From: an uncultured Desulfatiglans sp.
Lineage (GTDB): Bacteria > Desulfobacterota > DSM-4660 > Desulfatiglandales > Desulfatiglandaceae
Assembly (NCBI GenBank): GCA_900498135.1
Contig: LR026961.1
Span: 3,381,708 to 3,416,894 of the forward strand
Direction: 5' to 3'
Length of the DNA stretch: 35,187 nt
Shown: positions 4,508 through 34,021 of the stretch, piece by piece
How the letters are laid out: each line of letters starts with the position of its first letter
Position numbering within the stretch: the first letter of the stretch is position 1
The notes under the pieces: generated by a model
What the model was told of the DNA's origin: nothing
What the model saw: the letters and a program-made list of their open reading frames with translations, nothing else
The model's database searches: none
Made by a program: the position numbers and the translations under genes

Positions 4508-4528
4508 CGATATTCAACCGGAGAACCC

Positions 4529-7013: not shown

Positions 7014-7019
7014 GCCTTC
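7004..7019. terminator. Small hairpin between convergent genes
   Basis: GAAGGC-CTGA-GCCTTC forms a 6-bp stem over the stop codons of the convergent genes ending at 7013 (plus) and 7018 (minus). There is no clear T-run on either side, so this is a weak bidirectional terminator candidate. Confidence 0.3.
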
Positions 7020-8808: not shown

Positions 8809-8813
8809 GATAG

Positions 8814-8956: not shown

Positions 8957-8969
8957 GATATGGAAATAC

Positions 8970-10676: not shown

Positions 10677-10760
10677 TGGCCGTGCTTCTCCCTTTGTTTC
10701 GATGATATCCTTATCGTAACACCCCGCAGGAAGCGGCTCGGAGCTCCACGTGTATCCCCC

Positions 10761-10786
10761 TTTGGGCTTTCAGCTTCGAGCCTTCG
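10761..10786. repeat. Dispersed repeat overlapping a gene's stop codon
   Basis: Contains GGGCTTTCAGCTTCGAGCC, the same type as at 8814 and 12206. On the minus strand it supplies the last codons (KARS) and the TGA of the radical SAM gene, so the repeat has inserted at, or grown into, the 3' end of that gene. Confidence 0.55.
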
Positions 10787-13468: not shown

Positions 13469-14059
13469 ATGATACGAAGATGGGTTCACTTGATTTTGGT
13501 GATGGGTGTCTGCCTGTGGTTCTCTGCGGCCTATGCGGAAGAGCCCGCCGAATACATCAACCCAGACGGAACCATCAACGAGGAAAAGCTGGTTGCTGAC
13601 ATAGAATCGGGTGTTATTTCCGATCCGGTGGCATTCACCGGCCTCCTCGTCGAGGTGGCTCCGGAGCAGGCTCCGACCATCGTAGGGATTATTGCCAAGG
13701 TGGTCCCGGAAAAAGCGCCCCTGATCGCAGAGGCCGCTGTAAACAAAGCCCCGCCCGAAAAGGCCGCCGATATCACGGTCGCAGCCGTCTTGGCCGCCCC
13801 TGAGCAGGCCGATGCGATTGTCGCCGCCGTCATCGCCGTTGTCCCCGCCGAGGCAGAGAAGATCCAGGCCGCCGTGGATGCGGTCAAGCCCCCGGTGACT
13901 GAGACCACCACCGAGACCACGTCGGAAACCACTGAAGAGACCACCGAAGAGACCACGGCCGAGACCACCAGCGTCGAAACCACCACGGTCGAGACGACGA
14001 CCACCACCACCACAACCACGACCACCAGCGTGGAAACGACGGTCAGTCCGGCCAGTTGA
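13469..14059 (+). CDS. Secreted repeat protein with Thr/Glu-rich tail, unrecognised family
   Basis: 196 residues from ATG 13469, preceded by GGGAGGAGGAG; the longer frame from 13361 is less likely. A signal peptide ends near AAYA (residue 23). Residues about 62-140 are five tandem 15-16 residue units of the form P-E-x-A-x-x-I-x-x-A-(A/V)-V/I-x-x-(A/V), each likely one short helix pair (VAPEQAPTIVGIIAKV, VPEKAPLIAEAAVNKA, PPEKAADITVAAVLAA and so on). Residues 143-192 are almost only Thr and Glu with Ser/Val, including a run of eleven Thr, encoded by an ACC/ACG-rich microsatellite. It precedes the beta-barrel gene by 44 bases, so it probably belongs to the export module as a periplasmic or surface protein. 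Thr-rich tails are often O-glycosylated. Function unknown. Confidence 0.75.
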   Translation: MIRRWVHLILVMGVCLWFSAAYAEEPAEYINPDGTINEEKLVADIESGVISDPVAFTGLLVEVAPEQAPTIVGIIAKVVPEKAPLIAEAAVNKAPPEKAADITVAAVLAAPEQADAIVAAVIAVVPAEAEKIQAAVDAVKPPVTETTTETTSETTEETTEETTAETTSVETTTVETTTTTTTTTTTSVETTVSPAS

Positions 14060-14103
14060 GCTTTTTGATCGCATTTGACAGCAGAAATTCGAGGGAACGA
14101 CCG

Positions 14104-15444: not shown

Positions 15445-15575
15445 TTCGATCGTCCGTTTATTCCTCCTCTCCCGGGTCACGCCGAATGCAGCCTGAGGCG
15501 AAGATAGAGGATCCAGCCCCTTCGGCCGCATCGCCAACCCGGCCCTCAAAAGGCCCGAGAGAAGGAAAAAAGCCT

Positions 15576-16664
15576 ATGTCACCCATGGCCCGTTCGTTCG
15601 ATACCCGCTGTTCTCTTTCTCCATCCCATACGCTGCGCGCTTTGCTCTTTGCGATGCTCCTTGGGGCCTTCGGCTGCGGCCATGGCGGCGAGATTGTCAA
15701 GGAGACCACCGTCGCCACCGGCGATCTCGGTGGTCTCAAGGCGGAAGACCGGGCGATGCTCGACGAGATCAAAAAGACCGTCGTCAAGCCGGCGGCCGAT
15801 GAAGGCATCAGCAGCATCATCGAAGAAACGCCGCACTTCACCGTGTCCGAATACCTCGCCAGGTACCCTGAGGCCAGGGCGATGGTGGCCGACTACCGCG
15901 TAGGCGGAAATGACGTCCTGAACATCACGGTTTACGAAGAAAAGGACCTTTCCCGGGAGGCGGTCCGCGTCTCCGGAAAAGGGTACATCTCCTTCCCCCT
16001 AGTGGGCCAGCTCAAGGTTGCGGGTCTGACCACCACGGAAATCGAAAGGCTGATCTCCGACAAGCTGGCCGAGCAGCAGTACCTCTTGGACGCCCACGTG
16101 TCGGTCATGGTCACCGAATACAACAGCCAGCAGTTTTTTGTCCTCGGGGCCGTAGACAGTCCCGGAGCCTATCCCCTCCAGGCACGGGAGCGGGTTCTGG
16201 ACGCCATCTCCAAGGTAAAGGGCCTGGAGCATGAAAAGGCCAGCAGCAAATTGATGCTCATCCGGACCCTCAACCCCGACACCGGAAAAGAGCAGAAACT
16301 CGTGATCGACATCAACCTGAGGGACCTTCTGAACCGCGGGGACCAGGCCTCCAACATCTATCTCGCCGACCGTGATGTCCTCTACGTGTCGCCGGTGGAG
16401 CACTACTACATCATCGGACAGGTGAATACGCCCGGCTCCTACAACATACCCGAAAACGGGATCACCCTGGTCGAGGCCATCGGTATGGCCGGGGGCTTCA
16501 GCCGGATCGCCTCCCGCAACAATACCCGCATCATCCGCGTCGAAGACGGCGTCGAAAAGATCATCCAGGTAAAAGTCGATGCCATCACCGACGCCGGCAA
16601 AAAGATCCACGACGTGGTCATCAAGCCGGGCGACATCATCGTTGTGCCGGAAAGCTTCTTCTAG
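15576..16664 (+). CDS. Polysaccharide export outer-membrane lipoprotein (Wza-like, SLBB domains)
   Basis: 362 residues from ATG 15576, which has AGAAGGA 8 bases upstream; the frame is open from 15486 but that start lacks a site. The N-terminus (LRALLFAMLLGAFGC) is a signal peptide ending at a likely lipidated Cys. A Poly_export domain begins near residue 106 (YRVGGNDVLNITVYEE) and includes ISFPLVGQLKVAGLTTTEIE. It is followed by two SLBB-type segments, FVLGAVDSPGAYPLQ and YIIGQVNTPGSYNIPENGITLVEAIGMAGG, and the closing IKPGDIIVVPESFF. Wza-family proteins form the outer-membrane channel for capsule or EPS and dock on the Wzc-type kinase, encoded 17 bases downstream. Secure family assignment. 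Confidence 0.92.
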   Translation: MSPMARSFDTRCSLSPSHTLRALLFAMLLGAFGCGHGGEIVKETTVATGDLGGLKAEDRAMLDEIKKTVVKPAADEGISSIIEETPHFTVSEYLARYPEARAMVADYRVGGNDVLNITVYEEKDLSREAVRVSGKGYISFPLVGQLKVAGLTTTEIERLISDKLAEQQYLLDAHVSVMVTEYNSQQFFVLGAVDSPGAYPLQARERVLDAISKVKGLEHEKASSKLMLIRTLNPDTGKEQKLVIDINLRDLLNRGDQASNIYLADRDVLYVSPVEHYYIIGQVNTPGSYNIPENGITLVEAIGMAGGFSRIASRNNTRIIRVEDGVEKIIQVKVDAITDAGKKIHDVVIKPGDIIVVPESFF

Positions 16665-16681
16665 GACTTTCGAGATACCCT

Positions 16682-19006
16682 ATGCCTGACGACCCCCAAG
16701 GCGAAGAACAACTCGACCTTCGCGACTACCTTCGCGTGATTCTCAAACGCCGGTGGACCATCATCACCGTCTTTGCGGTAATCTTCATCAGCGTGGGCAT
16801 CTATACCTACACGGCTACGCCGATCTACAAGGCCTCCACCCGCCTGGTCATCGAGAAGGAAAACCCGAACGTGGTGTCCATCGAGGAGGTCATGGCGGTG
16901 GACTCCTCCGGCACGGACTACTATCAGACCCAGTACAAGATCATCGAAAGCCGCTCCGTCGCCCGTGAGGTCATCAGCCGCCTCGATCTGAACGAGAGCG
17001 AGGAGTTCTTCCCCGAGCCCAAGGACGACATCCTCTCCAACCTGAAGCGCTCCGTCCGGGAGACCATTCATTCCTGGAAAGAGGGCATCCAGTCTCTCCT
17101 CAAAAGCGGCGAGGACAAGGCCGATGCGTCGACCGTTGAACTGGATCCCGACTCCGCGCTGGTCTCCGCCTTCATCGGCCGGATCGAGGTCTCTCCCATC
17201 CGCAACAGCCGCCTGGTCGACGTAGGCTTCGAGGCCAAGGACCCCCTTCTCGCCACCCGGATCGTCAACACCCTTGCAAAGGCCTACATCGACCAGAACC
17301 TGGAGATCAAGCTGAGGGCCGCCCAGGACGCGGTCAGGTGGCTCCATGAGCGGATCGAAGTGGAGCGCAAAAAGGTCGAGCAGGCCGAGCAGGCGCTCCT
17401 CAGATATAAAGAGGAACACGATATCATCACCGATTTCACCAGCGACACCGAGCATGTGACGGCCCAGAAGCTCGCCCAGCTGAACGCCCAGGTCGTGGAT
17501 GCGGAGGCCATCCGTGTCGAGGCGGAGACCCGATACCAGCAGGCACTCCGGCTGAAGGGGTCGCCCGACCTGCTCGACTCGATCCCCGAGGTCCTCAACA
17601 ATGAACTGATCCGCCAGATCAAGACCATGGAGGTGGATCTCTTCAAGCGGATGTCCGAACTCTCCAAAAAATACGGGAGGAACCATCCCCAGATGGTGGC
17701 CATCGAGGCCGAGCTGAAGACCCTCGAAAGACGCAAGCAGCAGGAGATCAACCGGGTCATCAATTCCCTCAAGAACCACTACGAAGTGGCCGTCGCGAAG
17801 GAGGAATCGCTCAAGCTCGCCCTGGCCAACCAGAAGAAGGAGTCCCTCGAACTCAATCAGAAGGCCATCCAGTACAGCGTCCTCAACCGCGAGGTCGAAA
17901 GCGCCCGGGAGATGTACAACCTCCTGATCAAGCGCTTCAAGGAGACCACCCTCACAGAGGATATGCGGACCGGCAACATCCGGGTCATCGACCAGGCCGA
18001 GGTGCCTCGCAGCCCGGTAAAGCCCAACAAAAAGCTCAACCTCCTCCTGGGCCTGATCGTTGGCCTCGTGGCCGGCACGGGCCTGGCCTTCTTCTTCGAA
18101 TACCTGGACAACACCATCAAGATCCCGGACGACCTTAAACAGCACCTGAAGATCCCCTACCTGGGCCCGACCCCCTTGATAGAGGCAGCGGGAAATCCCG
18201 GGGATAAAGGTTCCCCATCTACCGATCTGGTCTGCCTGCACGCCCCCAAGTCCACGGCCAGCGAATCCTTCCGGGGGATCCGCACCAATATTCTTTTCTC
18301 CTCCGCCGAGGGGGCGCCCCAGGCGATCCTGGTGACGAGCCCCGGGCCCAGGGAAGGAAAGACCCTCACCACAACCAACCTCGCTGTCGCCATGGCCCAG
18401 TCCGGCAGCAAAGTGGTCCTGGTCGATTGCGATCTGCGCCGTCCCAAGATTCACAGCCTGTTCGGCGTCTCGAGGGAGCGTGGGTTCACCAATCTCCTGG
18501 TGGGGAATGCCGAGCTCGACACCACGGTGGTTTCGACCCAGGTGCCCAACCTGGACCTGATCGTCTCCGGGCCCCTCCCTCCCAATCCTTCCGAGATGCT
18601 CGGGTCGACCCGGATGGCGGACCTGCTCGCGGAGTTGAGAAAACGCTACGACCGGATCCTGATCGATTCACCCCCCATCACGGCGGTCACGGATTCCGTC
18701 ATCCTCTCCAAATACGTGGACGGGGTTGTCCTGGTCATCCGGGCTGGCGACACGGTCCGGGAAGTCGCCAAAAACGCCCTGAATCAGCTCCAGGCCGTCG
18801 GTGCCCACATCCTTGGCGGCATCCTGAACGCCGTCGATATCGGCAAGGACAAATACTACTATTACTACTACTATCAGTACTACCACTACTACTACGGCGA
18901 CGACGGCGAAAAGAAAAGATCCCGCCGCGCAAAGCGCAAAAAGAAGGGCTCCAAAAGCGCCTACTACGCCGGCAAAGACGAACTCGGCACAGAAAAAATC
19001 TCTTAG
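16682..19006 (+). CDS. wzc: Wzc-like polysaccharide co-polymerase and BY-type tyrosine autokinase
   Basis: 774 residues. A Wzz domain with a first membrane helix at about 21-40 (WTIITVFAVIFISVGIYTY) is followed by a long coiled periplasmic region (about 190-420), a GNVR-like segment with SRSPVKPNKKLN near 440, and a second helix near 450-470. The cytosolic BY-kinase domain has Walker A GPREGKT (about 554), Walker A' LVDCDLRRPK (about 580) and Walker B ILIDSPP (about 658). The C-terminus carries the autophosphorylation cluster: 12 Tyr in residues 725-738, interrupted by one Gln and one His, then a Lys/Arg-rich tail. Kinase cycling of this cluster controls polymer length and export; the phosphatase partner is encoded next. 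The Tyr codons form a TAC/TAT microsatellite. Very secure. Confidence 0.95.
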   Translation: MPDDPQGEEQLDLRDYLRVILKRRWTIITVFAVIFISVGIYTYTATPIYKASTRLVIEKENPNVVSIEEVMAVDSSGTDYYQTQYKIIESRSVAREVISRLDLNESEEFFPEPKDDILSNLKRSVRETIHSWKEGIQSLLKSGEDKADASTVELDPDSALVSAFIGRIEVSPIRNSRLVDVGFEAKDPLLATRIVNTLAKAYIDQNLEIKLRAAQDAVRWLHERIEVERKKVEQAEQALLRYKEEHDIITDFTSDTEHVTAQKLAQLNAQVVDAEAIRVEAETRYQQALRLKGSPDLLDSIPEVLNNELIRQIKTMEVDLFKRMSELSKKYGRNHPQMVAIEAELKTLERRKQQEINRVINSLKNHYEVAVAKEESLKLALANQKKESLELNQKAIQYSVLNREVESAREMYNLLIKRFKETTLTEDMRTGNIRVIDQAEVPRSPVKPNKKLNLLLGLIVGLVAGTGLAFFFEYLDNTIKIPDDLKQHLKIPYLGPTPLIEAAGNPGDKGSPSTDLVCLHAPKSTASESFRGIRTNILFSSAEGAPQAILVTSPGPREGKTLTTTNLAVAMAQSGSKVVLVDCDLRRPKIHSLFGVSRERGFTNLLVGNAELDTTVVSTQVPNLDLIVSGPLPPNPSEMLGSTRMADLLAELRKRYDRILIDSPPITAVTDSVILSKYVDGVVLVIRAGDTVREVAKNALNQLQAVGAHILGGILNAVDIGKDKYYYYYYYQYYHYYYGDDGEKKRSRRAKRKKKGSKSAYYAGKDELGTEKIS

Positions 19007-19029: not shown

Positions 19030-19055
19030 TCCTTTGAGCTTTCAGTCTCAAGCTC
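19030..19055. repeat. Dispersed repeat just upstream of the phosphatase gene
   Basis: CTTTGAGCTTTCAGTCTCAAGCTCC belongs to the degenerate family seen at 8814, 10761 and 12206. It occupies the place where a ribosome binding site for the gene starting at 19058 would be expected. Confidence 0.5.
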
Positions 19056-19057
19056 CA

Positions 19058-19825
19058 ATGATCGACCTTCACTGCCACATACTCCCCAACGTGGACGACG
19101 GGCCTCAGTCCGTGGATGAGAGCCTTGCCATGGCAAGACTAGCCGTAAAAGACGGCATCCGCGAGATCGTGGCTACGCCCCATTCCCTGAACGGCATCTA
19201 TTCGAATTCGACCCAAAATGTGGTTTCCGGAGTGGCAGCCTTTAATGAAATCCTCTCCGCCAACGGAATTGACCTGAAGGTGTATCCGGGCGCTGACCTT
19301 CATCTCTGCAAAAATATGATCCAGCGGATAGAAAACGGTGAGGCCTGCACCATCAATAACGCGGGGAAATTCATCCTGCTGGAGCTTCCATCCCAGATGG
19401 TCCCCAATGGCGTTAAAGATGAGATATTTGCCCTCAAACTGAACGGCATCACTCCGATCATTACCCATCCCGAACGGAATGCCGTCATTCAGCACGATCC
19501 AAACATCCTCTATGAGCTTATCCAGATGGGTGCGCTCGCGCAGGTGACGGCTATGAGCCTGACCGGCGATTTTGGAGAGTTTATTGCCAACGTGTCCGGA
19601 ATCCTTGTGCGGGATCGGTTGATCCACATGATTGCGACAGACGCCCATTCCTCCGTGGATCGACCCCCGGTTTTATCCGATGCGGTTGAACAGGTCGGTG
19701 AGCTGCTTAAAAACTATGACGAGGCCCTCAGCATGGTCAGGGCAGTTCCAGAGGCGATTTTCTCAGGGAGATTCCCCGATCTGGGCGAGCGCAGTCCGGC
19801 GAGACGTTCGGGAAAGGCTGCCTGA
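19058..19825 (+). CDS. CpsB/YwqE-type PHP-family protein-tyrosine phosphatase
   Basis: 255 residues from ATG 19058; the frame could also start at TTG 19034, but MIDLHCHILP is the natural beginning. PHP metal ligands are visible: DLHCHILPNVDDG (residues 3-15), VATPH, the Glu in LLELPSQ, IITHPERN and IATDAHS. This is the manganese-dependent phosphatase that dephosphorylates the Tyr cluster of Wzc/CpsD-type kinases, and the kinase gene lies 51 bases upstream. It acts in the cytoplasm at the inner membrane. No ribosome site is evident because a dispersed repeat fills the leader, so translation may be weak or coupled. It is the last gene of the GC-rich export module. Family secure. Confidence 0.9.
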   Translation: MIDLHCHILPNVDDGPQSVDESLAMARLAVKDGIREIVATPHSLNGIYSNSTQNVVSGVAAFNEILSANGIDLKVYPGADLHLCKNMIQRIENGEACTINNAGKFILLELPSQMVPNGVKDEIFALKLNGITPIITHPERNAVIQHDPNILYELIQMGALAQVTAMSLTGDFGEFIANVSGILVRDRLIHMIATDAHSSVDRPPVLSDAVEQVGELLKNYDEALSMVRAVPEAIFSGRFPDLGERSPARRSGKAA

Positions 19826-20036: not shown

Positions 20037-20163
20037 AGGGCTTTTTGGGCGGATAAAATGGGATTCCAACATCTAAAATGGAACCTTTTTTCAATCCTAA
20101 TGCAACTATTTCAATAGGTTGTTGGGATCTTACCCCAATATCGCATCTTAAATTTTGAATTGT

Positions 20164-21510
20164 ATGTTCGCTCTTTTCAAACGTAAATTCCACAACCTCA
20201 TCTCCGACAAAAAATTCTCTGAGATCCTCACCGGCTCCGTCTGGGCCCTGTCTGCGCGGGTCATCGCCACAGCCCTCGGCATGGTCAGTAGCATCATCAT
20301 CGTCCGATGGTACGGGGCCGAAGTTTTGGGCATCGTGGCCGTGCTCCAATCCTCCCTTATGTTGGCAACCATTTTTACGCTACTTGGTACAAATACCTCC
20401 ATCCTCCGCCTGATCCCAGAACATTTGGCCAAGTATTCGGCTACATCCGCGTTCAAGGTCTACCGTAAGACACAGTATTTTGTGGCGGGGCTATCGGTAA
20501 TCACGGGTGCCATCCTATTCTTCGCTTCGGGTTTCATTGCTTATACAGTTTTTCACAAACCCCATCTCCGCTTCTATTTTGCCCTTGCTGCCGTTTTCAT
20601 CATTTTTGAATCTCTGCTGAGTTTAAACACCCAGGCAGTGCGAGGGCTGCGTTTGATCAAGCTATTCGCCCTCATGCAGATGCTGCCTCAGTTTTGCAAG
20701 TTAATCATCCTGATCCCAATTACGATTTCTTTCCACAACTTGGATAATCCCGTTTATGCCATGTTCGCATCTATAGTGATCGCTGCCTTGGTTGGGGCGT
20801 TTATCGTAGACAGAGCTTTCAAAAGTAAGACAGGGGCGAACGACAGGGCACAGCATATGCCAATCCGAGAGATTCTGTCGATGTCGTTCCCCATGCTCAT
20901 GACTGCCACCATGACTTTTGTCATCGGACAAACCGGGGTGATCATGTTGGGTATGTTTAGATCGGAGGCAGAGATCGGCTACTATTCCATTGCCGTGAAG
21001 CTTGCAACTTTGACTGCCTTTGTGTTAAGCGCAGTAAATAATATGGCTGCTCCTAAGTTTGCTGAATTGCATTTTACTGATAATGTAGAAGAACTTTTTC
21101 GAATAGCCAAGAAATCTGCTAAACTCGTTTTCTGGATTACAACACCTATTTTGCTTGCACTTGTTACGCTTGGCAAGCCCATACTCTCCATATTTTTTGG
21201 CGAGGATTTTTCAGGATGTTATCCGGTTTTGCTGCTTCTGATTTTTGGCCAGTTCATTAACTATATGTCCGGATCAACGGCTATGTTTTTGAACATGAGC
21301 GGCCACCAAAAAGTATTCCAAAATATTATGTTCTTAGTTGCGATGTTCAACATTTCAATTAACGCTGTTATGATTCCAATCTCTGGGATGTATGGGGCAG
21401 CTATCGCTGCCACGTTAAGCCTTGCCGGCTGGAATATCGCCTCCCTCATGTATATTAAAAGCAAATATGGGAAAACAACAGCCTATTTTCCCATTTGGAA
21501 ATTCAAATGA
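20164..21510 (+). CDS. wzx: Wzx-type polysaccharide flippase (MOP superfamily)
   Basis: 448 residues from ATG 20164; a TTG three codons upstream is also open. About 12-14 hydrophobic helices run through the whole protein, as in MATE/MOP exporters. The N-terminal signature SVWALSARVIATALGMVSSIIIVRWYGAEVLGI is characteristic of the polysaccharide biosynthesis flippase family. It would move the undecaprenyl-PP-linked repeat unit across the inner membrane. It opens the AT-rich cassette, and its stop overlaps the next start (ATGA at 21507), so it is translationally coupled to the beta-propeller-like gene. Composition drifts from mixed at the 5' end to AT-rich at the 3' end. Family secure. Confidence 0.92.
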   Translation: MFALFKRKFHNLISDKKFSEILTGSVWALSARVIATALGMVSSIIIVRWYGAEVLGIVAVLQSSLMLATIFTLLGTNTSILRLIPEHLAKYSATSAFKVYRKTQYFVAGLSVITGAILFFASGFIAYTVFHKPHLRFYFALAAVFIIFESLLSLNTQAVRGLRLIKLFALMQMLPQFCKLIILIPITISFHNLDNPVYAMFASIVIAALVGAFIVDRAFKSKTGANDRAQHMPIREILSMSFPMLMTATMTFVIGQTGVIMLGMFRSEAEIGYYSIAVKLATLTAFVLSAVNNMAAPKFAELHFTDNVEELFRIAKKSAKLVFWITTPILLALVTLGKPILSIFFGEDFSGCYPVLLLLIFGQFINYMSGSTAMFLNMSGHQKVFQNIMFLVAMFNISINAVMIPISGMYGAAIAATLSLAGWNIASLMYIKSKYGKTTAYFPIWKFK

Positions 21511-22565
21511 AATATCTTATCACACTCAAGCCTCTTACCCATGAAACGACCATCCATTCTTATTCAGTCCTGGCTGAACTCAACTGGCGCACGAAAACCA
21601 TAGAAAGATGGTTGAAAATACCCGCCGCCAATTTCTCTGGCCGGAATTCATATATGAGGAGCTTTTCCCAAGGTATTTGTAAGGATGGCGACAAGTTGTT
21701 TCTATCAGGTTGGAACTTTTTAATTGAAATAAAGTATTCTTCTTTTGAAATAATTAATGTTTTTTCACATCGATTTATGTCTGATATTCACAGTTTAGAT
21801 GTTACGCGAAATGAACTATTTGTTTGCTCAACTGGGATTGATACGTTGTTGTGCTTTGATCGTGAAGATTATAGTTTGAAATGGTTTTGGCGTATTGAAG
21901 ATTCAGACTTGGAACGAAAGCAAGCAATTCCGACATCTCTGTCTTTTTTAAAAAAGAGAGGATCCTTCGTTGGAAAAGTGATCAGAAAGTCAGGCTTTTT
22001 CCACTTGTTAAGGCTTATTAAGGTTAGATTTGAAGATAATGAATATCGGGCAACAGACAAGACCAAGTCTGCATATCATGCATATCATATGAATGAAGTT
22101 AAACTAAATAAAAATAAAATTTATCTTTGTACAAAAGGTTGGAATGATATCAAATTTGTTAGAAGTTCTATAATAGAGCTTGATATGCAAACGCAACATG
22201 CTGATTTTTATGCAAGTCCAGGAAGTTTTTGTGGAGCTCATGATTTGCTATTTATGAACGGCCAAAATAAGCTGTTAGTTACGGAATCTGGAAGTGAATC
22301 AGTAGGGATAATGAACACAGTAAATAATAGCATTGAACATTATAAGCTTAGTCAAAACGACTATTTTGTTCGAGGCATAGCACCAAAACCAGATGGTTTT
22401 CTGATTGGATTCTCTCCTGATAGATTGCGAACTTGTGGGACATCTTATCCGTTCATTAGGGAGTACGATAAAAGGTTAAATCAAATTGGTGAGGATTTTA
22501 CTATTGAAGGTTTTTATTCTGATTGTGTTGGTGGCGCAATCCACAACTTGCTATTGGTGCAATGA
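21507..22565 (+). CDS. Hypothetical protein, probable beta-propeller, in the glycan cassette
   Basis: 352 residues, ATG overlapping the wzx stop. No signal peptide. The chain is a string of short beta segments with spaced motifs such as DIHSLDVTRNELFVCSTGIDTLLCFD, HMNEVKLNKNKIYLCTKGW, GAHDLLFMNGQNKLLVTESG and GIAPKPDGFLIGFS, each resembling one propeller blade of the NHL/WD-like kind. The order 'HSLDV', 'AYHMNEV', 'GAHDLLF' gives regularly placed His residues on blade starts. I do not recognise a named family. Proteins of this shape occur in O-antigen loci and may bind or modify sugars. The gene is strongly AT-rich. Cytoplasmic location is likely; function unknown. Confidence 0.6.
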   Translation: MKYLITLKPLTHETTIHSYSVLAELNWRTKTIERWLKIPAANFSGRNSYMRSFSQGICKDGDKLFLSGWNFLIEIKYSSFEIINVFSHRFMSDIHSLDVTRNELFVCSTGIDTLLCFDREDYSLKWFWRIEDSDLERKQAIPTSLSFLKKRGSFVGKVIRKSGFFHLLRLIKVRFEDNEYRATDKTKSAYHAYHMNEVKLNKNKIYLCTKGWNDIKFVRSSIIELDMQTQHADFYASPGSFCGAHDLLFMNGQNKLLVTESGSESVGIMNTVNNSIEHYKLSQNDYFVRGIAPKPDGFLIGFSPDRLRTCGTSYPFIREYDKRLNQIGEDFTIEGFYSDCVGGAIHNLLLVQ

Positions 22566-22617: not shown

Positions 22618-23916
22618 ATGACAGCCGTAAATATGATTAGAAAAAGAATACCCACAAGAGCAAAAGTATTTTTAAAATCTTCTGCTGCACTATCTTTCCG
22701 AATTAGCCGCTATGGAATTAACTGGCGTCGAAAATTAGCTAATGCCATCACACTTTCAGACGGTGTGTCCTCCACATTTTTTGGGTACCATGACAAAACT
22801 CCTTTTAGTAGGGATGGTCGAAAAATCCTTGCCATGTCTATACCAATCTCCGATGTTAAACTTGAAAGTGAATGTACCCCTATTACTCTCGGCTATTTTG
22901 TTAAAATGGAAGATGGGGAGTTCAGAAATGAATTCATTCCATTTTCAGAGACAACGACTTGGTGTTGGCAACAAGGTTGCATGCTACAGTGGCACCCATT
23001 AAAGTCGGACACGCATGTTGTATTCAATGCGCTGATTGAGGACGGTGTCTATGGTTCAAAGATCTTCGACATTGTGCACCTGAGTGTAGTAAGAGAATTC
23101 GCATATCCGATTTATTCAATTGATCCCACAGGCAAATACGCTGCGAGCACTAATTTCTCACGATTAGGTCGTCTTCGCCCAGGTTATGGTTATCGAGTGC
23201 TTGCGGACCTTACGGCATCTGATTCTGCCCCTAGCCATCAAGGTCTTTCTATATTTGATTTGTCCAGCGGAGAAAAAATAATTTTGCTTGTTAGTCTCGA
23301 AGACCTTGCCAAAACGGCAGGGGACCCCGGAAGCCAGCACTACATCAACCACGCCACCTTTTCTCCCGATGGCAAACGAGTTGTTTTCTTCCATGTATGG
23401 GAGCGTGGGGGTAATAAGGGAAGAGGCTTGCGTGTATGCGAGGTGGATCTGACCACAGGAGAGTGGTCCGAGGTGGAGGGCGACCGGCTCGTATCGCATT
23501 ACTGTTGGCGGGATGAAGATTGTTTTCTGGCAACCACACTTGATAATACGGGCACATGGAACTATACACTTTACAACCGGCAGGAAAAAAGTCGTACGGA
23601 TTTAAGTTTGCCTTTTAGTGAAGATGGCCACCCAATGTTTCATCCCCATGACAAGAGGATTATTGTTACAGACACTTATCCTGATAACTGCCGTGATCAG
23701 AAATTGTTTTTGGCCAACCTGGAGACCAGGAAGGTCCACAAGATAGGAGCGCTATACAGCCCTGTTAAATATCGTAAAGAAGTCCGATGTGATTTGCATC
23801 CACGATGGGATAGGGAAGGAACCTATGTGGTGGTTGATAATACGCATTTAGGAAAGCGAAAGATGTCCTTAATCAAAGTTAACGCAGTATCTTTTAATAT
23901 GATGAACTTGCTTTAA
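22618..23916 (+). CDS. TolB/oligogalacturonate lyase-like beta-propeller protein
   Basis: 432 residues from ATG 22618 (ATG 22630 also possible; neither has a strong ribosome site). Recurrent blade motifs of the WD40-like/TolB type are visible: FFGYHDKTPFSRDGRKILAM, GCMLQWHPLKSDTHVVFN, YINHATFSPDGKRVVFF, DGHPMFHPHDKRIIVTD and RCDLHPRWDREGTYVVVDN. The repeated H-P/H-x-x-F-S-P-D pattern recalls oligogalacturonide lyase (Pfam 14583), a Mn-dependent seven-bladed lyase that uses blade His residues. No signal peptide, so it is not obviously secreted. It could be a sugar-modifying enzyme or a glycan sensor; there is no proof of lyase activity. The middle of the gene (about 23290-23480) is less AT-rich than its ends. 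Confidence 0.65.
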   Translation: MTAVNMIRKRIPTRAKVFLKSSAALSFRISRYGINWRRKLANAITLSDGVSSTFFGYHDKTPFSRDGRKILAMSIPISDVKLESECTPITLGYFVKMEDGEFRNEFIPFSETTTWCWQQGCMLQWHPLKSDTHVVFNALIEDGVYGSKIFDIVHLSVVREFAYPIYSIDPTGKYAASTNFSRLGRLRPGYGYRVLADLTASDSAPSHQGLSIFDLSSGEKIILLVSLEDLAKTAGDPGSQHYINHATFSPDGKRVVFFHVWERGGNKGRGLRVCEVDLTTGEWSEVEGDRLVSHYCWRDEDCFLATTLDNTGTWNYTLYNRQEKSRTDLSLPFSEDGHPMFHPHDKRIIVTDTYPDNCRDQKLFLANLETRKVHKIGALYSPVKYRKEVRCDLHPRWDREGTYVVVDNTHLGKRKMSLIKVNAVSFNMMNLL

Positions 23917-23928
23917 AAGGTTCAGCTT

Positions 23929-25224
23929 ATGTGCGCTGAAAAATATTACTATAAAATCACATTGCGACATAGATTATTGTATTTATACTTTTTGCTTTTT
24001 ATATTTTTGTGGACCTATCAAGAGGGAATTTATAGAGACAAGGTATTTTCCATTCCAGGACACGCTTTTTTGCTCTTTACTGTGGTATCGCTTCTTATCA
24101 TCAATTTGAAAAACAAGTATGTGCCAAAATTAGATAAAAAATGCATAGCCTGTTTTATTATTTTTAATGTATGGTCTTCTCTTTTGGCTGTTTTTGAAGG
24201 TGAATTTCTAAGTGCATATGTTACTGGTGGCGGCCAAATATTGTTATTTCTATGTTTCTATAATTTTGTTATTTTTTACAATCTAAAAAAAACAGAATAT
24301 GTTGTGCATTTTATTAATATGTTGATTATCCTGAGTGTTGTGTCGGTTATGGTTGCATTATATGTTTTCGCATTTGGTGGCTTTTCGTTAGGTATGATAA
24401 AGATTCAGCAGCCGTCATTTGGGGGGGGGGGTCGGCTTACTGGCTGGTATGGTAGTCCTAACAACTTAGCTCCTGTTTTTGCGGTTGCTATCATAGCTAC
24501 TTTATTTAAGCTAAGTCGCCAACAATATTTTCTTTTAAGCAAAAAATGGAGTATTGTGTACTCTATTATTATTTTTATTAATTTCATCGGATTGATATTA
24601 ACTGGCAGTAGAGGTACCTGGGTAGCGTTTGCTATAGGATTAATGTTATTTTTAATTTTAAACTTTTCTAAAATTATTTCTAAGCCTAAAAATACAATAA
24701 AAATATTGTTAAGCATATTATCGTTAAGCATTTCGACAATTATTTTATTAAGTTATATAGGATACGACTTGGGATCATTCATGCAGCAGTTCGTTCGACC
24801 AGACAAGATCACCGCCCAATTAGATTTCTACAATCGTGGCTGGGGTAGGGCGTATTATTGGAGAGAAAGCTTTGAATTGATGAGAACTGCAGATATTAGT
24901 ACTGCTTTGTTTGGTTATGGACTGTCAGGGTTTATGGAAATTGTGAATCGCTCGTCTCATAGTGGTTTCCTTACCGTTGCCGTAGATCGAGGTTTGATAG
25001 CCCTCCTTTTGTTTTTAATGCTAATATATTACTTGTTTAAAGACAGTATTTTAAATTTAAAACAATCCAGCATTAAGTTTTTCTCAATATGCCTTCTAAC
25101 GTTCCTGATGATTAAAAACACAACTACTGTTGATATCCCGTGGAATACATTTCCCGGTATCGTATTCGTGATGACCTTGCTCTTGATATCTATGAAAGAC
25201 GATTCGCCAAGATTGAAGAGATGA
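23929..25224 (+). CDS. wzy: Wzy-type O-antigen polymerase/ligase family protein
   Basis: 431 residues, ATG after AAAAGG. About ten to twelve membrane helices with a larger periplasmic loop near the C-terminal third. Motifs fit the O-antigen ligase/Wzy family (Pfam 04932): GGRLTGWYGSPNNLAPVFAV (about 167-186), LILTGSRGTWVAFAIGLMLF, then FGYGLSGFMEIV and HSGFLTVAVDRGLIALLLF. It would polymerise repeat units at the periplasmic face, working with Wzx (20164) and the Wzc co-polymerase (16682). An 11-G tract in codons 165-168 keeps it in frame here, so the gene is in the ON state (see the tract entry). The only such protein in the window, so polymerase is more likely than ligase. Confidence 0.85.
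   Translation: MCAEKYYYKITLRHRLLYLYFLLFIFLWTYQEGIYRDKVFSIPGHAFLLFTVVSLLIINLKNKYVPKLDKKCIACFIIFNVWSSLLAVFEGEFLSAYVTGGGQILLFLCFYNFVIFYNLKKTEYVVHFINMLIILSVVSVMVALYVFAFGGFSLGMIKIQQPSFGGGGRLTGWYGSPNNLAPVFAVAIIATLFKLSRQQYFLLSKKWSIVYSIIIFINFIGLILTGSRGTWVAFAIGLMLFLILNFSKIISKPKNTIKILLSILSLSISTIILLSYIGYDLGSFMQQFVRPDKITAQLDFYNRGWGRAYYWRESFELMRTADISTALFGYGLSGFMEIVNRSSHSGFLTVAVDRGLIALLLFLMLIYYLFKDSILNLKQSSIKFFSICLLTFLMIKNTTTVDIPWNTFPGIVFVMTLLLISMKDDSPRLKR
24421..24431 (+). repeat. Poly-G tract (11 G) inside wzy, candidate phase-variation switch
   Basis: Eleven consecutive G in an otherwise very AT-rich gene, encoding four Gly at residues 165-168 just before the conserved RLTGWYG segment. With 12 G the frame stops after seven further codons at TAG; with 10 G it stops after twelve at TAG. 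Slippage would therefore truncate the polymerase to under 200 residues. Confidence 0.75.
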
Positions 25225-26610: not shown

Positions 26611-27570
26611 ATGGACGACACATATTTTGAACGACGGAAATCATGTCCAGCCTGTGGTTCAGCTAAATTCAGTATTATATATCAGAAAGACTATAACGAT
26701 CCTCTACTTAGAGATTATTTGACAGATTTTTATTGTTCAAATGGGATGGTTGAGTACCAGTATTTGAATGCAGGTGTGTATATCCTGTGTGAATGTGACG
26801 CTTGCGGATTAATTTTTCAAAGAGATATACCAAACGGATTATTCATGGCGCGTATATATGAGCATTGGATAGATCCAAAAAAGGTCTTTAACCTTCGTCG
26901 GCAGCAGGATTCCTTGGCTATTTATGCCAAACATGCACAAGAGATTATGCAAATCATTTCATACTTCAGAAGGGCGCCAACGACCTTATCTTTTTTTGAT
27001 TTCGGTATGGGATGGGGTCAATGGGCGTTAATGGCGAAGGCTTTTGGATGCGATTCATATGGCTCAGAGCTATCTCCCTCCCGAATCGAACATGCCAAAT
27101 CTAAAGGGATCAAAGTGGTTACGTGGGAGGAGATGCCGGAATCCCGCTTTGATTTTATTAACACTGAGCAAGTATTTGAACATATCCCAGAGCCTCTGCA
27201 GACATTGCGCCATTTGAGGAGGGCCCTAAAGGCAAACGGAATTTGTAAAATCAGTGTCCCCACTGCTAGTTACTTAAGACGAAGATTAGAAAAAATGAAG
27301 TGGAAAGCGGCAAAAGGCTCGAAAGATTCTCTTAATCTTGTTGCACCGTTAGAGCATATTAACTGCTTCAGGAGATCCTCTCTACTGAAGATGGCAGAGG
27401 CGGCGGACATGCAAGAAGTGTTAATCCCCATGAAAGTGCAATATAGATATATGCCCGATTGGAGCACCCCGAAGAAAATTGCAAGGAATCTTGGATTGCC
27501 GATATATCGGAATTTGCTAAAAAGACCGAACTATATCTTTCTTCGCAATATACAGGAGGATGTAATTTAA
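26611..27570 (+). CDS. Class I SAM-dependent methyltransferase with N-terminal zinc-binding motif
   Basis: 319 residues, ATG behind AGGAG. The N-terminus has CPACGSAKFS (residues 12-21) and CECDACGLIFQRD (about 64-76), two Cys pairs that probably bind zinc, as in many sugar C- and O-methyltransferases. A Rossmann methyltransferase core starts near residue 128 with FFDFGMGWGQWALMAKAFGCDSYGSELSP (glycine loop and acidic ribose contact), then FDFINTEQVFEHIPEPLQTLRHLRRALKANG, the usual motif order of Methyltransf_11/23. It probably methylates a sugar, for example as a cap or side decoration. The downstream glycosyltransferase starts immediately after its stop, so the two are coupled. Substrate unknown. 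Confidence 0.82.
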   Translation: MDDTYFERRKSCPACGSAKFSIIYQKDYNDPLLRDYLTDFYCSNGMVEYQYLNAGVYILCECDACGLIFQRDIPNGLFMARIYEHWIDPKKVFNLRRQQDSLAIYAKHAQEIMQIISYFRRAPTTLSFFDFGMGWGQWALMAKAFGCDSYGSELSPSRIEHAKSKGIKVVTWEEMPESRFDFINTEQVFEHIPEPLQTLRHLRRALKANGICKISVPTASYLRRRLEKMKWKAAKGSKDSLNLVAPLEHINCFRRSSLLKMAEAADMQEVLIPMKVQYRYMPDWSTPKKIARNLGLPIYRNLLKRPNYIFLRNIQEDVI

Positions 27571-28578
27571 TTGAACAAAAACAGAATATACTTATTGTAT
27601 CCCAGTTTTCGGAATGTTGGAGGAGTTCATAATGTTATTATCGACTTGTTTTCAGGGCTAAAAGCTGAATATGACGTTATAGTCTCGGGATACGATGAAT
27701 ATTGTCAAATAAATGAAAGATATAGAGAGGTTATACCGGAATCGAATTATTGGCGATTATCATTGTCTCGCCTCTTATTTGCAAAAGGGTTACTCATATC
27801 CCACCATCGAAAACTCACCACAAAGCTATTGTTATTGTCTCTGTTTCTGAAGAGAAATATTGTTCATGTAGCCCATAATGAGTTTTTTAATTTGAAGCAC
27901 GTTACGCTCTACCCGAAAAACATTATTGCTGTATCACATAGGGTCAAGAATAATTTGGTGGAATATTTTAAACAAGATCCATCGCGTATCATGGTTATAG
28001 AAAATGGTATTCATGATAGATACGCTGATGAGTATGGCAAACACAATTACAAGCAAACCGGCATTAAAATTCTATTTCCAGCACGAATTACAAAGATAAA
28101 GAATCAGGTGAACGTAGTCAATAAATTGAAAGGCAAAGTGGATGAAGAAGTAAACATATTTTTTGCAGGAAATGGTCCTTTATATGATGAATTAAAAAGC
28201 AAATGTAGAACGTCCTCTAATTTCGTGGCATTAGGGTTTGTTAGTGACATGCTTAGCCTATACAAGGAAATGGATTACGTTATGTTATTTACTCAAAAAG
28301 AAGGGCTGCCGATATGTCTGATTGAGGCAGCCATGATGGGGAAACCGATAATATGCAATGACGTGGGCGGAAATCTGGAAATTGTCGAACAAAAGGTAAA
28401 TGGATTCCTATGCAATTCTTTTTCTGAGCTAATAGATCGCATCAATAATTTACCGAACATAACATTTAGTGAGTATAAACATTTATCTGAAAACGCTCGT
28501 AAAACATATTTGGATAAATTTAACGTCGAAATTATGATAAACAAATATAGAAAAGTCATTTATCAATTTGGCATGTGA
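27571..28578 (+). CDS. GT4-family glycosyltransferase (TTG start)
   Basis: 335 residues. The start is TTG 27571, directly after the methyltransferase TAA, with AGGAGG about 12 bases ahead inside the preceding gene. GT-B fold: N-terminal YLLYPSFRNVGGVHNVIIDLFSGL (acceptor half, glycine-rich loop), HVAHNEFF, NIIAVSHRVKNNL and VIENGIHDRY. In the C-terminal half are ILFPARITKIKNQ, IFFAGNGPLYDELK and the E-x7-E motif EGLPICLIEA, followed by GKPIICNDVGGNLEIV. It builds the lipid-linked repeat unit in the cytoplasm. It is the last intact gene of the cassette; the next gene is broken by mobile elements. Family secure. Confidence 0.88.
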   Translation: MNKNRIYLLYPSFRNVGGVHNVIIDLFSGLKAEYDVIVSGYDEYCQINERYREVIPESNYWRLSLSRLLFAKGLLISHHRKLTTKLLLLSLFLKRNIVHVAHNEFFNLKHVTLYPKNIIAVSHRVKNNLVEYFKQDPSRIMVIENGIHDRYADEYGKHNYKQTGIKILFPARITKIKNQVNVVNKLKGKVDEEVNIFFAGNGPLYDELKSKCRTSSNFVALGFVSDMLSLYKEMDYVMLFTQKEGLPICLIEAAMMGKPIICNDVGGNLEIVEQKVNGFLCNSFSELIDRINNLPNITFSEYKHLSENARKTYLDKFNVEIMINKYRKVIYQFGM

Positions 28579-29739: not shown

Positions 29740-30543
29740 TCAAGCGATTTCACCCCTTTTCTGACCTGGTGTTTTTTGCGTTTTGGAGCAGGTGATTTTT
29801 TGGTCTTTCTGAGTCCCCCGTGGGGATCTGTAGCTTTTGCCCTCGAGCATGACTTTGTAGGCACCGTGCCGAAGCCTGTCGATGGTGGCTGCCCCGAGGA
29901 TACGGTTGGGGAAGGCGTCGGTCCACTCTGGAATATCGAGGTTCGAAGTCACGATGGTGCTTTTACGTTCATAGCGTTCGGCAATGACGTCATGGAAGTC
30001 TTCGTCCTGGCTGCCCTTGAGGGGCTTGAGGCCGAAGTCGTCGATGATGAGCAGATCGACGCCGGCCAGTTTGGCGAACTGGCGGTCAAAGGCGTTGATG
30101 GCCCTGGCTGCATGCAGCTGCGCGAGCATTTTGCTCTGGGTCGTAAAGAGGACATCATGCCCGGCGCGGATGGCGCAATGGCCCAGGGCCTGCGCGATAT
30201 GGCTTTTGCCGGTCCCGCAGGGCCCCACGATGAAGATGCAGACCTTCTCCTGCATGAAACGGCAGGAGGCAAGATCCATGATCAGGCTGCGGTTGATGTG
30301 GGGGTTAAAGGTGAAGTCGAACTCCTCCAGGGTTTTGTGATTGCGGAAGTTGGCCCGGCGCAGTGCCGAGGCCAACTTCTTCTGGGTTCTGCGGGCCACC
30401 TCGTCCTGGATGATGGTGGCGAGGAAATCCATGTAGGAGAGTTTCTCGTCGATAGCCTGGCGGTTGCGGCTCTCGATAGAATCAAGAATGCCTGAGAGGC
30501 GCAGTTGCTTGAGCATGGGGATCAGATCCGGCATGGGATTCAT
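29740..30543 (-). CDS. istB: IstB transposition helper ATPase
   Basis: 267 residues, ATG behind AAGGAGG on its strand. A DnaC/DnaA-like AAA+ protein with Walker A GPCGTGKSH (about residues 105-113) and Walker B LLIIDDFGLKPL (about 158-169), preceded by the N-terminal helical segment LKQLRLSGILDSIESRN typical of IstB. It forms an ATP-dependent oligomer on target DNA and activates the IstA transposase. It starts 14 bases after the istA stop. Full length and apparently functional. Confidence 0.95.
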   Translation of the reverse strand: MNPMPDLIPMLKQLRLSGILDSIESRNRQAIDEKLSYMDFLATIIQDEVARRTQKKLASALRRANFRNHKTLEEFDFTFNPHINRSLIMDLASCRFMQEKVCIFIVGPCGTGKSHIAQALGHCAIRAGHDVLFTTQSKMLAQLHAARAINAFDRQFAKLAGVDLLIIDDFGLKPLKGSQDEDFHDVIAERYERKSTIVTSNLDIPEWTDAFPNRILGAATIDRLRHGAYKVMLEGKSYRSPRGTQKDQKITCSKTQKTPGQKRGEIA

Positions 30544-30557
30544 GGGCGCCTCCTTTC

Positions 30558-32096
30558 TCAGTGAACCTGAAGCTCAGAGCGTTTTCTGATGAACCGACCG
30601 GATGCCTGGTAGACCGAAGCGAGCGCAGGCTGTGGTTCCTCTTTGAAGGGGACCTGATCGAGTCCTTTCTCGAGGATGGTCTTGACGGCCCGGTAGCGGG
30701 GGTTATCGAAGTGCAGGGCCCTCTCACAGGCCTCTTCGAGCCTCCCGGTGCCATACTTCTTGCCGAGGCGGATGACGCCTTGCGCGGCCCGCAGATTATC
30801 GAGGACACGGTTGCTAAAAAGTCTGCGGATCAGGCGGTGGCAGTGCTCGCCGACCAGCTCAGCCTGCTTGAGGCACCATTGCGGATCCTGCAGTTTATAG
30901 GCCAGGGCCTCGGGTGGAAGATGTTCGTCCACTGTAGCGTGTCTTCCAGGGGTGTAGAGGCGAGGATGAACCGCCACAAGCTCAAAGTCCTTGCAAAGCT
31001 TCACGGTCTTCTCCGTTGCCTTGAGCCAGAGCTTGCGGTGCACGAGGCTGAAGGGCGCCGAGTAATAGGCCTTCTCGAACTGCACATGGCAGTTGGCATG
31101 GACCTTGGCGTGCGTCCATACGGCCATCTCCGGTGCGACGTCGGGCAAAAGCTTCAGGAACACTTTCTCGGTTTCGGCGAAAACGCTCAAAGGCTTCTGT
31201 CTGGTCGTGCCATGAATCCGGTTGCCTGCTTCCTCGAGCACCCACCGCTGGAGTTGCTCGTTGGCATCGCGGAGGCTGCGGAACTCTCGCAAGGGCAGAA
31301 AACTCCTTTTGATGTACTTGACCCCGCTCTCCACCCGGCCCTTTTTCTTCGGATCCCGAGGCGGGCAGGGGCTGATCAGAAAGCCGTAGGCCTCCGCAAG
31401 GTCCCCGTAAGAGCGCTGTACATCAGGGTCATAATAACATGCACGGGTAATCGCGCACTTCGGGTTGTCGATAATCACTTTACAGGGAATCCCATTGAAA
31501 AACTCAAAAGCATGGCGGTGAGAGCAAAGCCACGTTCTGACCGTCTGGTCCAGGACCAGTTCGGCATACTGGTGGTGGCTGTAACAAAGTGTCATGACAA
31601 AAATCCAGGTCTTGAGCACTTCGCCGGTAAACACATCCGTAATGGTCGGACCCGTTCTGAAGTCCACCTGTGCAGCCTCGCCGGGCTCAAAATCGAGCAC
31701 ACAGCTTGCCTGTATGTTGCGCTTATCAAGTTTCTGCAGGAAACGCCGCACAGAGGAGTAGCTGCCGGCAAACCCGTAATGGCTGTTAAGCGCCCGGTGA
31801 ATCGTCGTTCCGCAAATACCCTCCTGCCACCACTGTTTGACCTGACTTTCAAACGGTTCAATCAAAGAGGGCTGAGCCGCTCGCTCCGTGCTAATCTCAA
31901 ACAATTTGCCCAAGATCTGATCCTCAGGGAGAGGAACGGCCGACAGAAGGCCGTTCCTCTCCGCAACGGCCCGTACCTCGGCACACTTGATCCGGCCCAT
32001 CAGCCCGCTCTTGGCAATGGCACGGTCGCTTTGCCCCATGCGCATCCGAAAAATAACCTGGCGGTAATGATGCATCTCGAACCTCCTGTTTGCCAT
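30558..32096 (-). CDS. istA: IstA transposase of the IS21 family
   Basis: 512 residues, ATG 32096 behind GGGAGG on its strand. The N-terminal helix-turn-helix (MHHYRQVIFRMRMGQSDRAIAKSG) binds the terminal repeats. The DDE integrase core begins at GEAAQVDFRTGPTI (first Asp), includes FNGIPCKVIIDNPKCAI (second Asp) and DPKKKGRVESGVKYIKRSF (catalytic Glu). A C-terminal Mu-type beta domain follows (VHANCHVQFEKAYYSAPF). Length and motifs are complete. It catalyses strand transfer with IstB. It has inserted into an older IS66-type copy. Confidence 0.95.
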   Translation of the reverse strand: MANRRFEMHHYRQVIFRMRMGQSDRAIAKSGLMGRIKCAEVRAVAERNGLLSAVPLPEDQILGKLFEISTERAAQPSLIEPFESQVKQWWQEGICGTTIHRALNSHYGFAGSYSSVRRFLQKLDKRNIQASCVLDFEPGEAAQVDFRTGPTITDVFTGEVLKTWIFVMTLCYSHHQYAELVLDQTVRTWLCSHRHAFEFFNGIPCKVIIDNPKCAITRACYYDPDVQRSYGDLAEAYGFLISPCPPRDPKKKGRVESGVKYIKRSFLPLREFRSLRDANEQLQRWVLEEAGNRIHGTTRQKPLSVFAETEKVFLKLLPDVAPEMAVWTHAKVHANCHVQFEKAYYSAPFSLVHRKLWLKATEKTVKLCKDFELVAVHPRLYTPGRHATVDEHLPPEALAYKLQDPQWCLKQAELVGEHCHRLIRRLFSNRVLDNLRAAQGVIRLGKKYGTGRLEEACERALHFDNPRYRAVKTILEKGLDQVPFKEEPQPALASVYQASGRFIRKRSELQVH

Positions 32097-32230: not shown

Positions 32231-32241
32231 CGTGTTACTAC
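32231..32241. repeat. 11-base direct repeat at the IS1634-type element, left copy
   Basis: CGTGTTACTAC, repeated in the same orientation at 34022-34032. The left copy contains the transposase stop codon (read as TAG on the minus strand). It is either a long target duplication, for which this family is known, or an internal sequence near both ends. Confidence 0.6.
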
Positions 32242-33968
32242 GCCTCTGAATGACGGTTCACAATTTCTAGAATCGGCTTAGGGATTGAAATCTTTAATGT
32301 TTTCAGCGTAGACAGGACCTCCTCCGGGGGTTCATTGCGTCGAAAGAATAGGTGACTGGGGGTCTCGAATTCCGTGGCCTGGAACTGAGCCAAGGCATGA
32401 TGGAGCCACCCCCATGTCTTGCCGGTCATGAACTCGGCTACCCGTTGGAGCAACAGGGCCAGCACACAGATTTTGATATGCGCTTCAATTCGACGCGGCA
32501 ACCAATGATACATGGGAGTCATATGGATCTGAGTGCTCTTCATCGTACGGAAACAGCGCTCGATGATCAGGAGGTTTTTGTACCCTGTGGCGGCATCCTC
32601 TGCCTGGAGGGTGTCATCATTGGTGATGAGGACCCATTTGCCGTCATGCTTGCGGGCCGCTTCGATCTTGGCGGTGTCGATGAAGATTTTCCCGGCCTTG
32701 CTGATGCCCAGATAGCGTCTGGTGCGTTGGGAGGCCAGCAGCTCGATCGCCCATTTGGCCGTGGCATCCCAATCCCTGTGCCGGTCGAGTTCCTGGCGCA
32801 GCTCTTCCAGGACAGATTCCCGGTGCAGATTCTGCCGTTCCGCTTCCCTGGGGTTGAAGCAGACGAAGTAACGCCTGCGCAAGACCCCGGTGCCGATTTC
32901 GACCTCTTTGACCTGGAGATTGTCCCCTACCTTTTTGTATCGTCCCCCACGGGTCAAGACCTCATCCTTGATCTCTTTGACGCTCCCCGCCCTGGCCGCC
33001 AGGAGGTATTTCCCTCCGCCCAGAGACAGGCGTTTGCGGTTGTCTTCAGAGTTCATGCCAGCATCGGCGACAAAGAGGCAGCGATTCAACTGCCATCCCC
33101 TCAGATCTTGTTTGACCGTTTCGATCGTGGTCACATCCGCCGTGTTGCCCGGGAACACCCAGGAGCGGACCGGAAACCCCTCTCGGGTGACCGCCAGAGC
33201 CACCACCACTTGAGGGTTCCACGTCCCATTTTTGGATTTCCCGCGCTTGCGCAGGCCGGATACGGGCCGGGACAGATCCTCTTCGCCGCCCTCCGCGCTC
33301 GCGACGAGCTCGGCATCTTCGAAGTCGATCTCGAAAGAGGCCGTGGTCGTATCGTAGAACACCACATCGACCTCAAGGTTGAAGAGGTTGGCGGTGTTGA
33401 AGAAAATGGTTTTTTCGACCTCCCCCGCGCTTGCATGGAGCAGGTCCATCGCTTCATAAAAGTGGTCAAGCTTCAGTCCCTGGCAAGACGGGAGATGGAC
33501 TGTCGGGAGCCACCGGTCCCACACTCCCAGCTTGCTGCGCGGTTCGCAAAGCCGGTTGGCGGTCATCGCAAAAAGCGCTCGCTCATAAGGGACTTGACAG
33601 TTTGCATCTGCGGCAACCTTGCGCAGCGCCTCTCCGATACCCAGGCGCTCCCACAACGCCTCCGCGACCAACACCGGGCCCAATTGCCGGGAACCCAGGA
33701 GTTTAAGCTCGGCTGGCCACGTTTTCTCAAGCGAGGTTCTTCCCGGCACGGCGGTCCCGCCCACTTCCAACTCGAGCCCGCAGGCGCGCGCAATCGATTG
33801 GCACAGGCGCATCATGGCATCACGGTCGATCAAGTCAGCCCGCCCGAAATTATGAATGATCTGGGCGGTCGGTTTGCGCGTCTCAGGATGGCGAACGTTA
33901 TGCGCGAGCTGAAGGTACTCGACCACGGAGCCGTCTCGATTTTTGCGTTTGGTCGTTCGAATAAACAT
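32238..33968 (-). CDS. IS1634-family (IS4 superfamily) transposase
   Basis: 576 residues from ATG 33968, which gives MFIRTTKRKNRDGSVVEYLQL, the usual family start; the frame is open 17 codons further upstream but that part is unlike the family. A DDE transposase with a beta-strand insertion: VDVVFYDTTTASFEI holds the first Asp, CLFVADAGMNSEDN the second, and YKNLLIIERCFRTMKS the catalytic Glu (Y-x(n)-E-x-x-F-R-x-M-K). The long N-terminal region and IPKPILEIVNRHSEA end are present, so it appears intact and may be active. Confidence 0.92.
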   Translation of the reverse strand: MFIRTTKRKNRDGSVVEYLQLAHNVRHPETRKPTAQIIHNFGRADLIDRDAMMRLCQSIARACGLELEVGGTAVPGRTSLEKTWPAELKLLGSRQLGPVLVAEALWERLGIGEALRKVAADANCQVPYERALFAMTANRLCEPRSKLGVWDRWLPTVHLPSCQGLKLDHFYEAMDLLHASAGEVEKTIFFNTANLFNLEVDVVFYDTTTASFEIDFEDAELVASAEGGEEDLSRPVSGLRKRGKSKNGTWNPQVVVALAVTREGFPVRSWVFPGNTADVTTIETVKQDLRGWQLNRCLFVADAGMNSEDNRKRLSLGGGKYLLAARAGSVKEIKDEVLTRGGRYKKVGDNLQVKEVEIGTGVLRRRYFVCFNPREAERQNLHRESVLEELRQELDRHRDWDATAKWAIELLASQRTRRYLGISKAGKIFIDTAKIEAARKHDGKWVLITNDDTLQAEDAATGYKNLLIIERCFRTMKSTQIHMTPMYHWLPRRIEAHIKICVLALLLQRVAEFMTGKTWGWLHHALAQFQATEFETPSHLFFRRNEPPEEVLSTLKTLKISIPKPILEIVNRHSEA

Positions 33969-34021
33969 ATCTACGTGGTTAGCATATACCACATAGCATG
34001 TCAATATGATAACGATCACGT

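Follow-up and report, generated by a model that had tools for sequence, protein, structure and literature searches.

A G11 tract in a predicted wzy-type polymerase gene of Desulfatiglans as a candidate site of phase variation

Results

A predicted exopolysaccharide or capsule locus with a cassette of low GC content

The window, by which we mean the whole 35,187-nt stretch of DNA analysed, comes from an uncultured Desulfatiglans sp. and bears the following genes.

2834..5617, + strand: sugar-nucleotide genes (Gfo/Idh-hexapeptide transferase fusion and DegT aminotransferase)
14056..15444, + strand: outer-membrane beta-barrel protein (BBP2_2; PF10082, 6.7e-19), kept in the congener G001
15486..16664, + strand: Wza/EpsE-like polysaccharide export protein (PF02563, 1.8e-22; SLBB; EpsE 2.8e-46, below the model's cut-off)
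16682..19006, + strand: Wzc-like chain-length determinant with tyrosine autokinase (Wzz, GNVR and AAA_31 domains; TIGR01007 9.5e-63, above the cut-off)
19034..19825, + strand: CpsB/CapC-like phosphatase (PF19567, 8.8e-53)
20155..21510, + strand: wzx flippase (Polysacc_synt_3; PF13440, 3.4e-19)
21495..22565, + strand: cassette gene without a family match
22618..23916, + strand: cassette gene with a weak hint of beta-propeller repeats (PD40), below the cut-off
23929..25224, + strand: predicted wzy-type polysaccharide polymerase, 431 aa (Pfam PF04932, Wzy_C, 2.9e-11, residues 214-363), with many predicted membrane helices
25386..26471, + strand: glycosyltransferase (Glyco_trans_1_4; PF13692, 1e-13)
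26611..27570, + strand: methyltransferase (Methyltransf_23; PF13489, 4.9e-19)
27571..28578, + strand: GT4 glycosyltransferase (PF00534, 2.1e-21)
29740..32096, - strand: IS21-type element, IstB ATPase and IstA-like transposase (PF01695, 1.6e-61; PF22483, 4.6e-17), at the right border of the AT-rich cassette
32238..34019, - strand: DDE_Tnp_1 transposase (PF01609, 1.6e-13)

Judged by its gene content, the layout of the locus is that of a Wza/Wzc-exported EPS or capsule system. Of the three components that mark a Wza/Wzc-dependent locus, the Wza-type exporter and the Wzc-type autokinase are encoded in the window, and the initiating sugar-phosphate transferase (PF02397; L195:10590-12623) is encoded outside it. 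The gene for this transferase and that for a 712-aa Wzy_C protein are located 10-15 kb beyond the window's right end. Between the sugar-nucleotide and the export genes, the minus strand (7018-12188 of the window) bears genes for a PMT_2-type transferase, a carbamoyltransferase and a B12-binding radical SAM protein.

The GC content drops to 35-45% over approximately 20-29 kb of the window, and this cassette is bordered on the right by the IS21-type and DDE transposases. The export, kinase and phosphatase genes along with the outer flanks are conserved in G001, the only congener, and no match to the 20-29 kb cassette was found in the two G001 contigs compared. Altogether, the region looks the way exchangeable serotype cassettes usually do.

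The predicted polymerase

The Wzy_C match of the 431-aa protein exceeds the curated cut-off (43.8 bits vs 31.7), and the protein is hydrophobic throughout, its hydropathy profile giving roughly ten membrane segments. As expected for a wzy gene, the ORF is found in the company of wzx and glycosyltransferase genes. These data agree with the assignment to Wzy-type polymerases made in the earlier note, which we keep as a prediction since PF04932 also covers ligases. A sequence search among solved structures gave no match to the polymerase. In the AlphaFold model built from this one sequence, confidence was so low (pLDDT 45) that the loop bearing the tract could not be located.

The 712-aa Wzy_C protein, encoded about 23 kb downstream of wzy in the same region, past the window's right end, has a counterpart in G001. 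It may be a ligase or another polymerase, and it might supply polymerase activity. If it is redundant with the wzy product, a switch at wzy would be weaker.

Position of the G11 tract and the effect of slips

The features of the polymerase gene that are relevant to slippage are as follows.

24421..24431, + strand: G11 homopolymer encoding Gly4 (codons 165-168) of the polymerase, just ahead of the R-L-T-G-W-Y-G-S-P-N segment
24453..24455, + strand: TAG, the end of translation if the tract gains one G (G12), product of 175 aa
24467..24469, + strand: TAG, the end of translation if the tract loses one G (G10), product of 179 aa

The tract lies exactly where it had first been reported and begins in phase at codon 165, so that Gly165-168 are encoded by GGG GGG GGG GGT. 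The earlier note had expected a stop within seven codons upon the gain of one G and within twelve upon its loss; translation of the altered sequences places the stops 7 (G12) and 11.7 (G10) codons past the tract, in full agreement. The G9, G10, G12 and G13 versions all yield products of 174-180 aa without Wzy_C, and any slip other than a multiple of three removes this domain entirely. The gene thus shows two features of SSR-based phase-variable genes, a G/C homopolymer of at least about 8 inside the ORF and a unit change that shifts the frame and abolishes the product. A tandem-repeat search of wzy revealed no further repeat likely to act as a switch, and the A8 run at 24285 is not unusual for a gene of this base composition.

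The tract is improbable in its gene and unremarkable in the genome

The GC content of the wzy gene is 33.8% vs approximately 59.5% for the genome (400 kb sample). By a first-order Markov estimate, 2e-5 runs of at least 11 G are expected in the gene and 0.02 in the window. When the protein was kept and synonymous codons were redrawn (Monte Carlo), a run this long appeared with p of about 5e-5 under the gene's own codon use and of about 6e-3 under that of the cassette; outside the tract, GGG serves as only 1 of the 25 Gly codons of the gene. The results support the initial claim that such a tract is improbable in so AT-rich a gene.

The genome (4,801,105 bp, one contig) contains one G11, which is its longest G run, two G10, about ten G9 and about 80 G8. 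By simple extrapolation from the genome background, represented by the 400 kb composition sample and the genome pattern counts, a single G11 somewhere in a GC-rich genome is unremarkable. The surprising part is its placement in one of the most AT-rich genes of the genome. In other words, the tract exceeds the prediction from composition at the level of the gene and does not do so genome-wide.

Conservation among relatives

No relative of the polymerase was found at E<=1e-3 in the 45 other genomes of the taxonomic family; neither plasmids nor a GTDB scan with the polymerase protein yielded one, and five distant relatives were found among 395 genomes of the phylum. The nearest of these, L070, is collinear with the query on both sides of the tract and bears LYRGFPYQRL where the query has SFGGGGRL, thus indicating that the gene is not a chimera and that the glycines are not required. 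In about 25 other Wzy_C-type ORFs from the family and the congener, the longest G runs comprise 3-8 nucleotides. A search of 84,980 GTDB species genomes for G9 followed by 0-9 bases and the R-x-x-G-x4-PN-x-x-A/G motif gave four hits, none of them in a polymerase; an exact pattern of this kind would miss relatives with a differing motif, such as L070.

In these searches the tract is unique to one genome, so that the proposal to look for it in polymerase homologues had a negative outcome: none of the homologues found keeps it. This absence does not refute switching, because close homologues of genes with known switch tracts often lack the tract (PMC6321876).

Long G runs elsewhere and mismatch repair

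The next-longest G runs of the genome are found in genes for an Hsp70-like protein (VGGGTTDF), TrkA (VGGGLTG), MnmE, a protein kinase, a lysine-2,3-aminomutase-like enzyme and FrhB. All are in frame and encode mostly glycine-rich stretches of ordinary proteins; both G10, those of the hsp70-like gene and trkA, and most coding G9 tracts sit in genes not expected to switch. The enrichment of long tracts in surface or contingency genes, which is usual for SSR-based phase variation though not strictly required, is not seen here, the other runs of G>=9 being mostly in housekeeping genes, as they are in relatives.

Runs of at least 11 G are present in 22 of the 46 genomes of the family and in 150 of the 297 sampled genomes of the phylum. 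Those of the family include G16 in TauE and G11-G12 in genes for a cytochrome, a Cache/SpoIIE protein, a histidine kinase and a beta-propeller protein; sequencing artefacts may account for some of the runs close to contig ends. Given these housekeeping-gene runs in both genome and family, long G runs are not confined to genes of the cell surface. The earlier view that poly-G tracts are unusual outside host-associated bacteria does not fit these counts: long G runs are common in this phylum, which is not known here to be host-associated. MutS (MutS1) is full length in the genome, and MutS was found in almost all of the family; intact MutS should slow slippage.

Several further tracts were recorded during these counts. 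At L142:1458-1466 (about position 507457 of the genome), a G9 joins an N-terminal fragment resembling ABC substrate-binding proteins (frame 0) to the C-terminal part of a methyltransferase (frame 2), which is without the first SAM motif; this joint would have arisen between two G-rich motifs, by deletion or by a collapse of the assembly. At L015:1501-1509 (about position 175489), a C9 encodes, as assigned by eye, part of the SPPHMSG start of a DegT-like sugar aminotransferase; it lies about 6 kb from another Wzy_C gene (169329) and represents a second, weaker glycan-gene candidate. One family genome (G011; L111-L116, L120) has about 13 tracts of G11-G28, several of them just upstream of start codons, e.g. 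before pyruvate dehydrogenase E1-type, M48 peptidase and radical SAM genes, where changes in length could alter translation or promoter spacing. In the near-complete genome G045, the in-frame G16 (L152:1501-1516) encodes glycines of the TauE/SafE exporter, and there is also a G17 (L167) with no long ORF across it. The abundance of poly-G per phylum genome is very uneven, from none in half of them to more than 100 overlapping hits in G284, G181, G159 and G231; mutation bias, repair or sequencing artefact may be the cause.

Discussion

The reading that we prefer, and to which we assign about an even chance, is that the G11 is a slippage-prone functional contingency site in the serotype-specific wzy gene of an exported EPS or capsule locus. 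In its favor, the tract keeps the reading frame while both alternative frames soon run into a stop, and the longest G run of the genome is placed in one of its most AT-rich genes, against an expectation close to zero. The Gly run is not conserved in L070 or in the other Wzy_C ORFs, and the gene belongs to an exchangeable, IS-bordered cassette between machinery conserved in the congener. In Campylobacter, tracts of G>=8 in ORFs are known to switch genes, and there are many such tracts per genome (PMC6321876). Phase variability of the polymerase is therefore plausible on sequence grounds. Against it stand the intact MutS1, the location of the other long G tracts of the genome in genes not expected to switch, the presence of G>=11 in half of the phylum genomes, the absence of the tract from all homologues found, and the second Wzy_C gene, which might provide polymerase activity.

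As to the slippage rate, its reversibility, the phenotype and selection for the tract, we infer the following course of events. Replication slippage would add or drop a G in a small fraction of cells; at lengths other than 11 ± a multiple of three, only the N-terminal stub of 174-180 residues would be made, and these rare OFF cells would produce no polymer. A second slip would rarely restore the polymer, giving still rarer revertants. Clonal cells would then differ in their coat, which could be useful against phages or in attachment.

The main alternative, which we regard as quite possible though short of probable, is that the tract is passive: a short Gly-Gly stretch, situated in a permissive loop of a gene acquired recently, grew longer by slippage and drift, and the tract was never selected as a switch. 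It would mutate somewhat above the average and be nearly fixed by mismatch repair. The frequency of long G runs in the phylum, many of those in the family being in housekeeping genes, the G9-G10 runs on Gly codons of ordinary proteins in the same genome, the presence of MutS and the restriction of this tract to one genome in the searches all speak for a passive tract, as do relatives that also have glycines before the motif Arg (HGGRSEG in L071). However, the other runs of this genome belong to GC-rich genes, and such genes have long G runs more often, whereas in wzy the tract departs strongly from both composition and Gly codon use; moreover, the gene class and the outcome of frameshifts are as in known switches.

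It is improbable that the recorded length is wrong, or that the tract is a product of sequencing or assembly, the true gene having another in-frame length or a mixture of lengths. Homopolymer length is error-prone, G-tract lengths that depart from the reference record were found in a study of Bifidobacterium (PMC9187656), and in this very assembly one G9 sits where fragments of two unrelated genes meet. Nevertheless, the reading frame of wzy is undisturbed to either side of the tract and collinear with L070, the seven other G9/G10 (or C9) coding tracts read keep the frame, unlike random length errors, and in an assembly of one contig a run of 11 G is unlikely to be purely artefactual. Least of all do we expect that the protein requires Gly4 as a flexible turn ahead of the conserved Arg segment, with incidental GGG codons: the tract does directly precede an R-x-x-G-x4-P-N segment seen in some Wzy_C proteins, but relatives do without Gly4 at this place (RGFPYQ, VVHGG, GSE) and GGG codons are rare elsewhere in the gene.

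If the G11 does act as a contingency site, what an OFF state would mean depends on the locus. In the Akkermansia Wza/Wzy capsule system, a wzy::Tn gad::Tn strain, in which gad::Tn is a second Tn insertion, lost its capsule (PMC13343947). The earlier note had suggested a toggle between polymer and single repeat units. This is less likely because Wza-like, Wzc-like and CpsB-like genes, i.e., those of an exported EPS or capsule system, are present; a Wzy OFF cell would probably make no exported polymer at all.

Poly-G switches of glycan genes are well known. Like the candidate described here, the poly-G/C glycan genes of Campylobacter, Neisseria and Helicobacter have a G tract of at least 8 in a surface-glycan ORF, where a slip leads to a truncated product. 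They encode a transferase or modifying enzyme rather than a polymerase; here, in addition, MutS is present, there is a single tract rather than a set, and the candidate is known from one sequence. The polymerase itself is toggled within a population in Salmonella Typhimurium, where phages are the proposed cause of reversible wzy loss, but there the wzy locus is excised and re-acquired (PMC12074656). The phase-variable Wzy-dependent capsule of Akkermansia resembles our case in its Wza/Wzx/Wzy locus and in the lack of capsule in the wzy-disrupted strain, but it switches by invertible elements instead of a homopolymer (PMC13343947). Closest in the repeat itself is the Bifidobacterium breve pilus switch, with an intragenic G11/G12 tract that turns the gene ON and OFF in a beneficial bacterium; it concerns a pilus gene, and measurements in cultures and mice gave a mixture of tract lengths (PMC9187656). 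In the literature covered, which is partial and has most subscription journals outside it, we found no description of a poly-G/C switch in wzy.

Long G runs being common in this phylum, finding one there does little by itself to indicate phase variation. We put forward only tentatively, as something rather less than probable, the broader view that a homopolymer switch at the level of the polymerase turns an entire exported polymer on and off in a bacterium with intact mutS outside the usual pathogens, and that poly-G tracts may serve as contingency sites across the phylum. A switch at wzy, if real, would mean that a lineage little studied so far turns an entire surface polymer on and off at random, probably to hedge against phages or in attachment, and tract-length heterogeneity would be worth counting when such organisms are sequenced.
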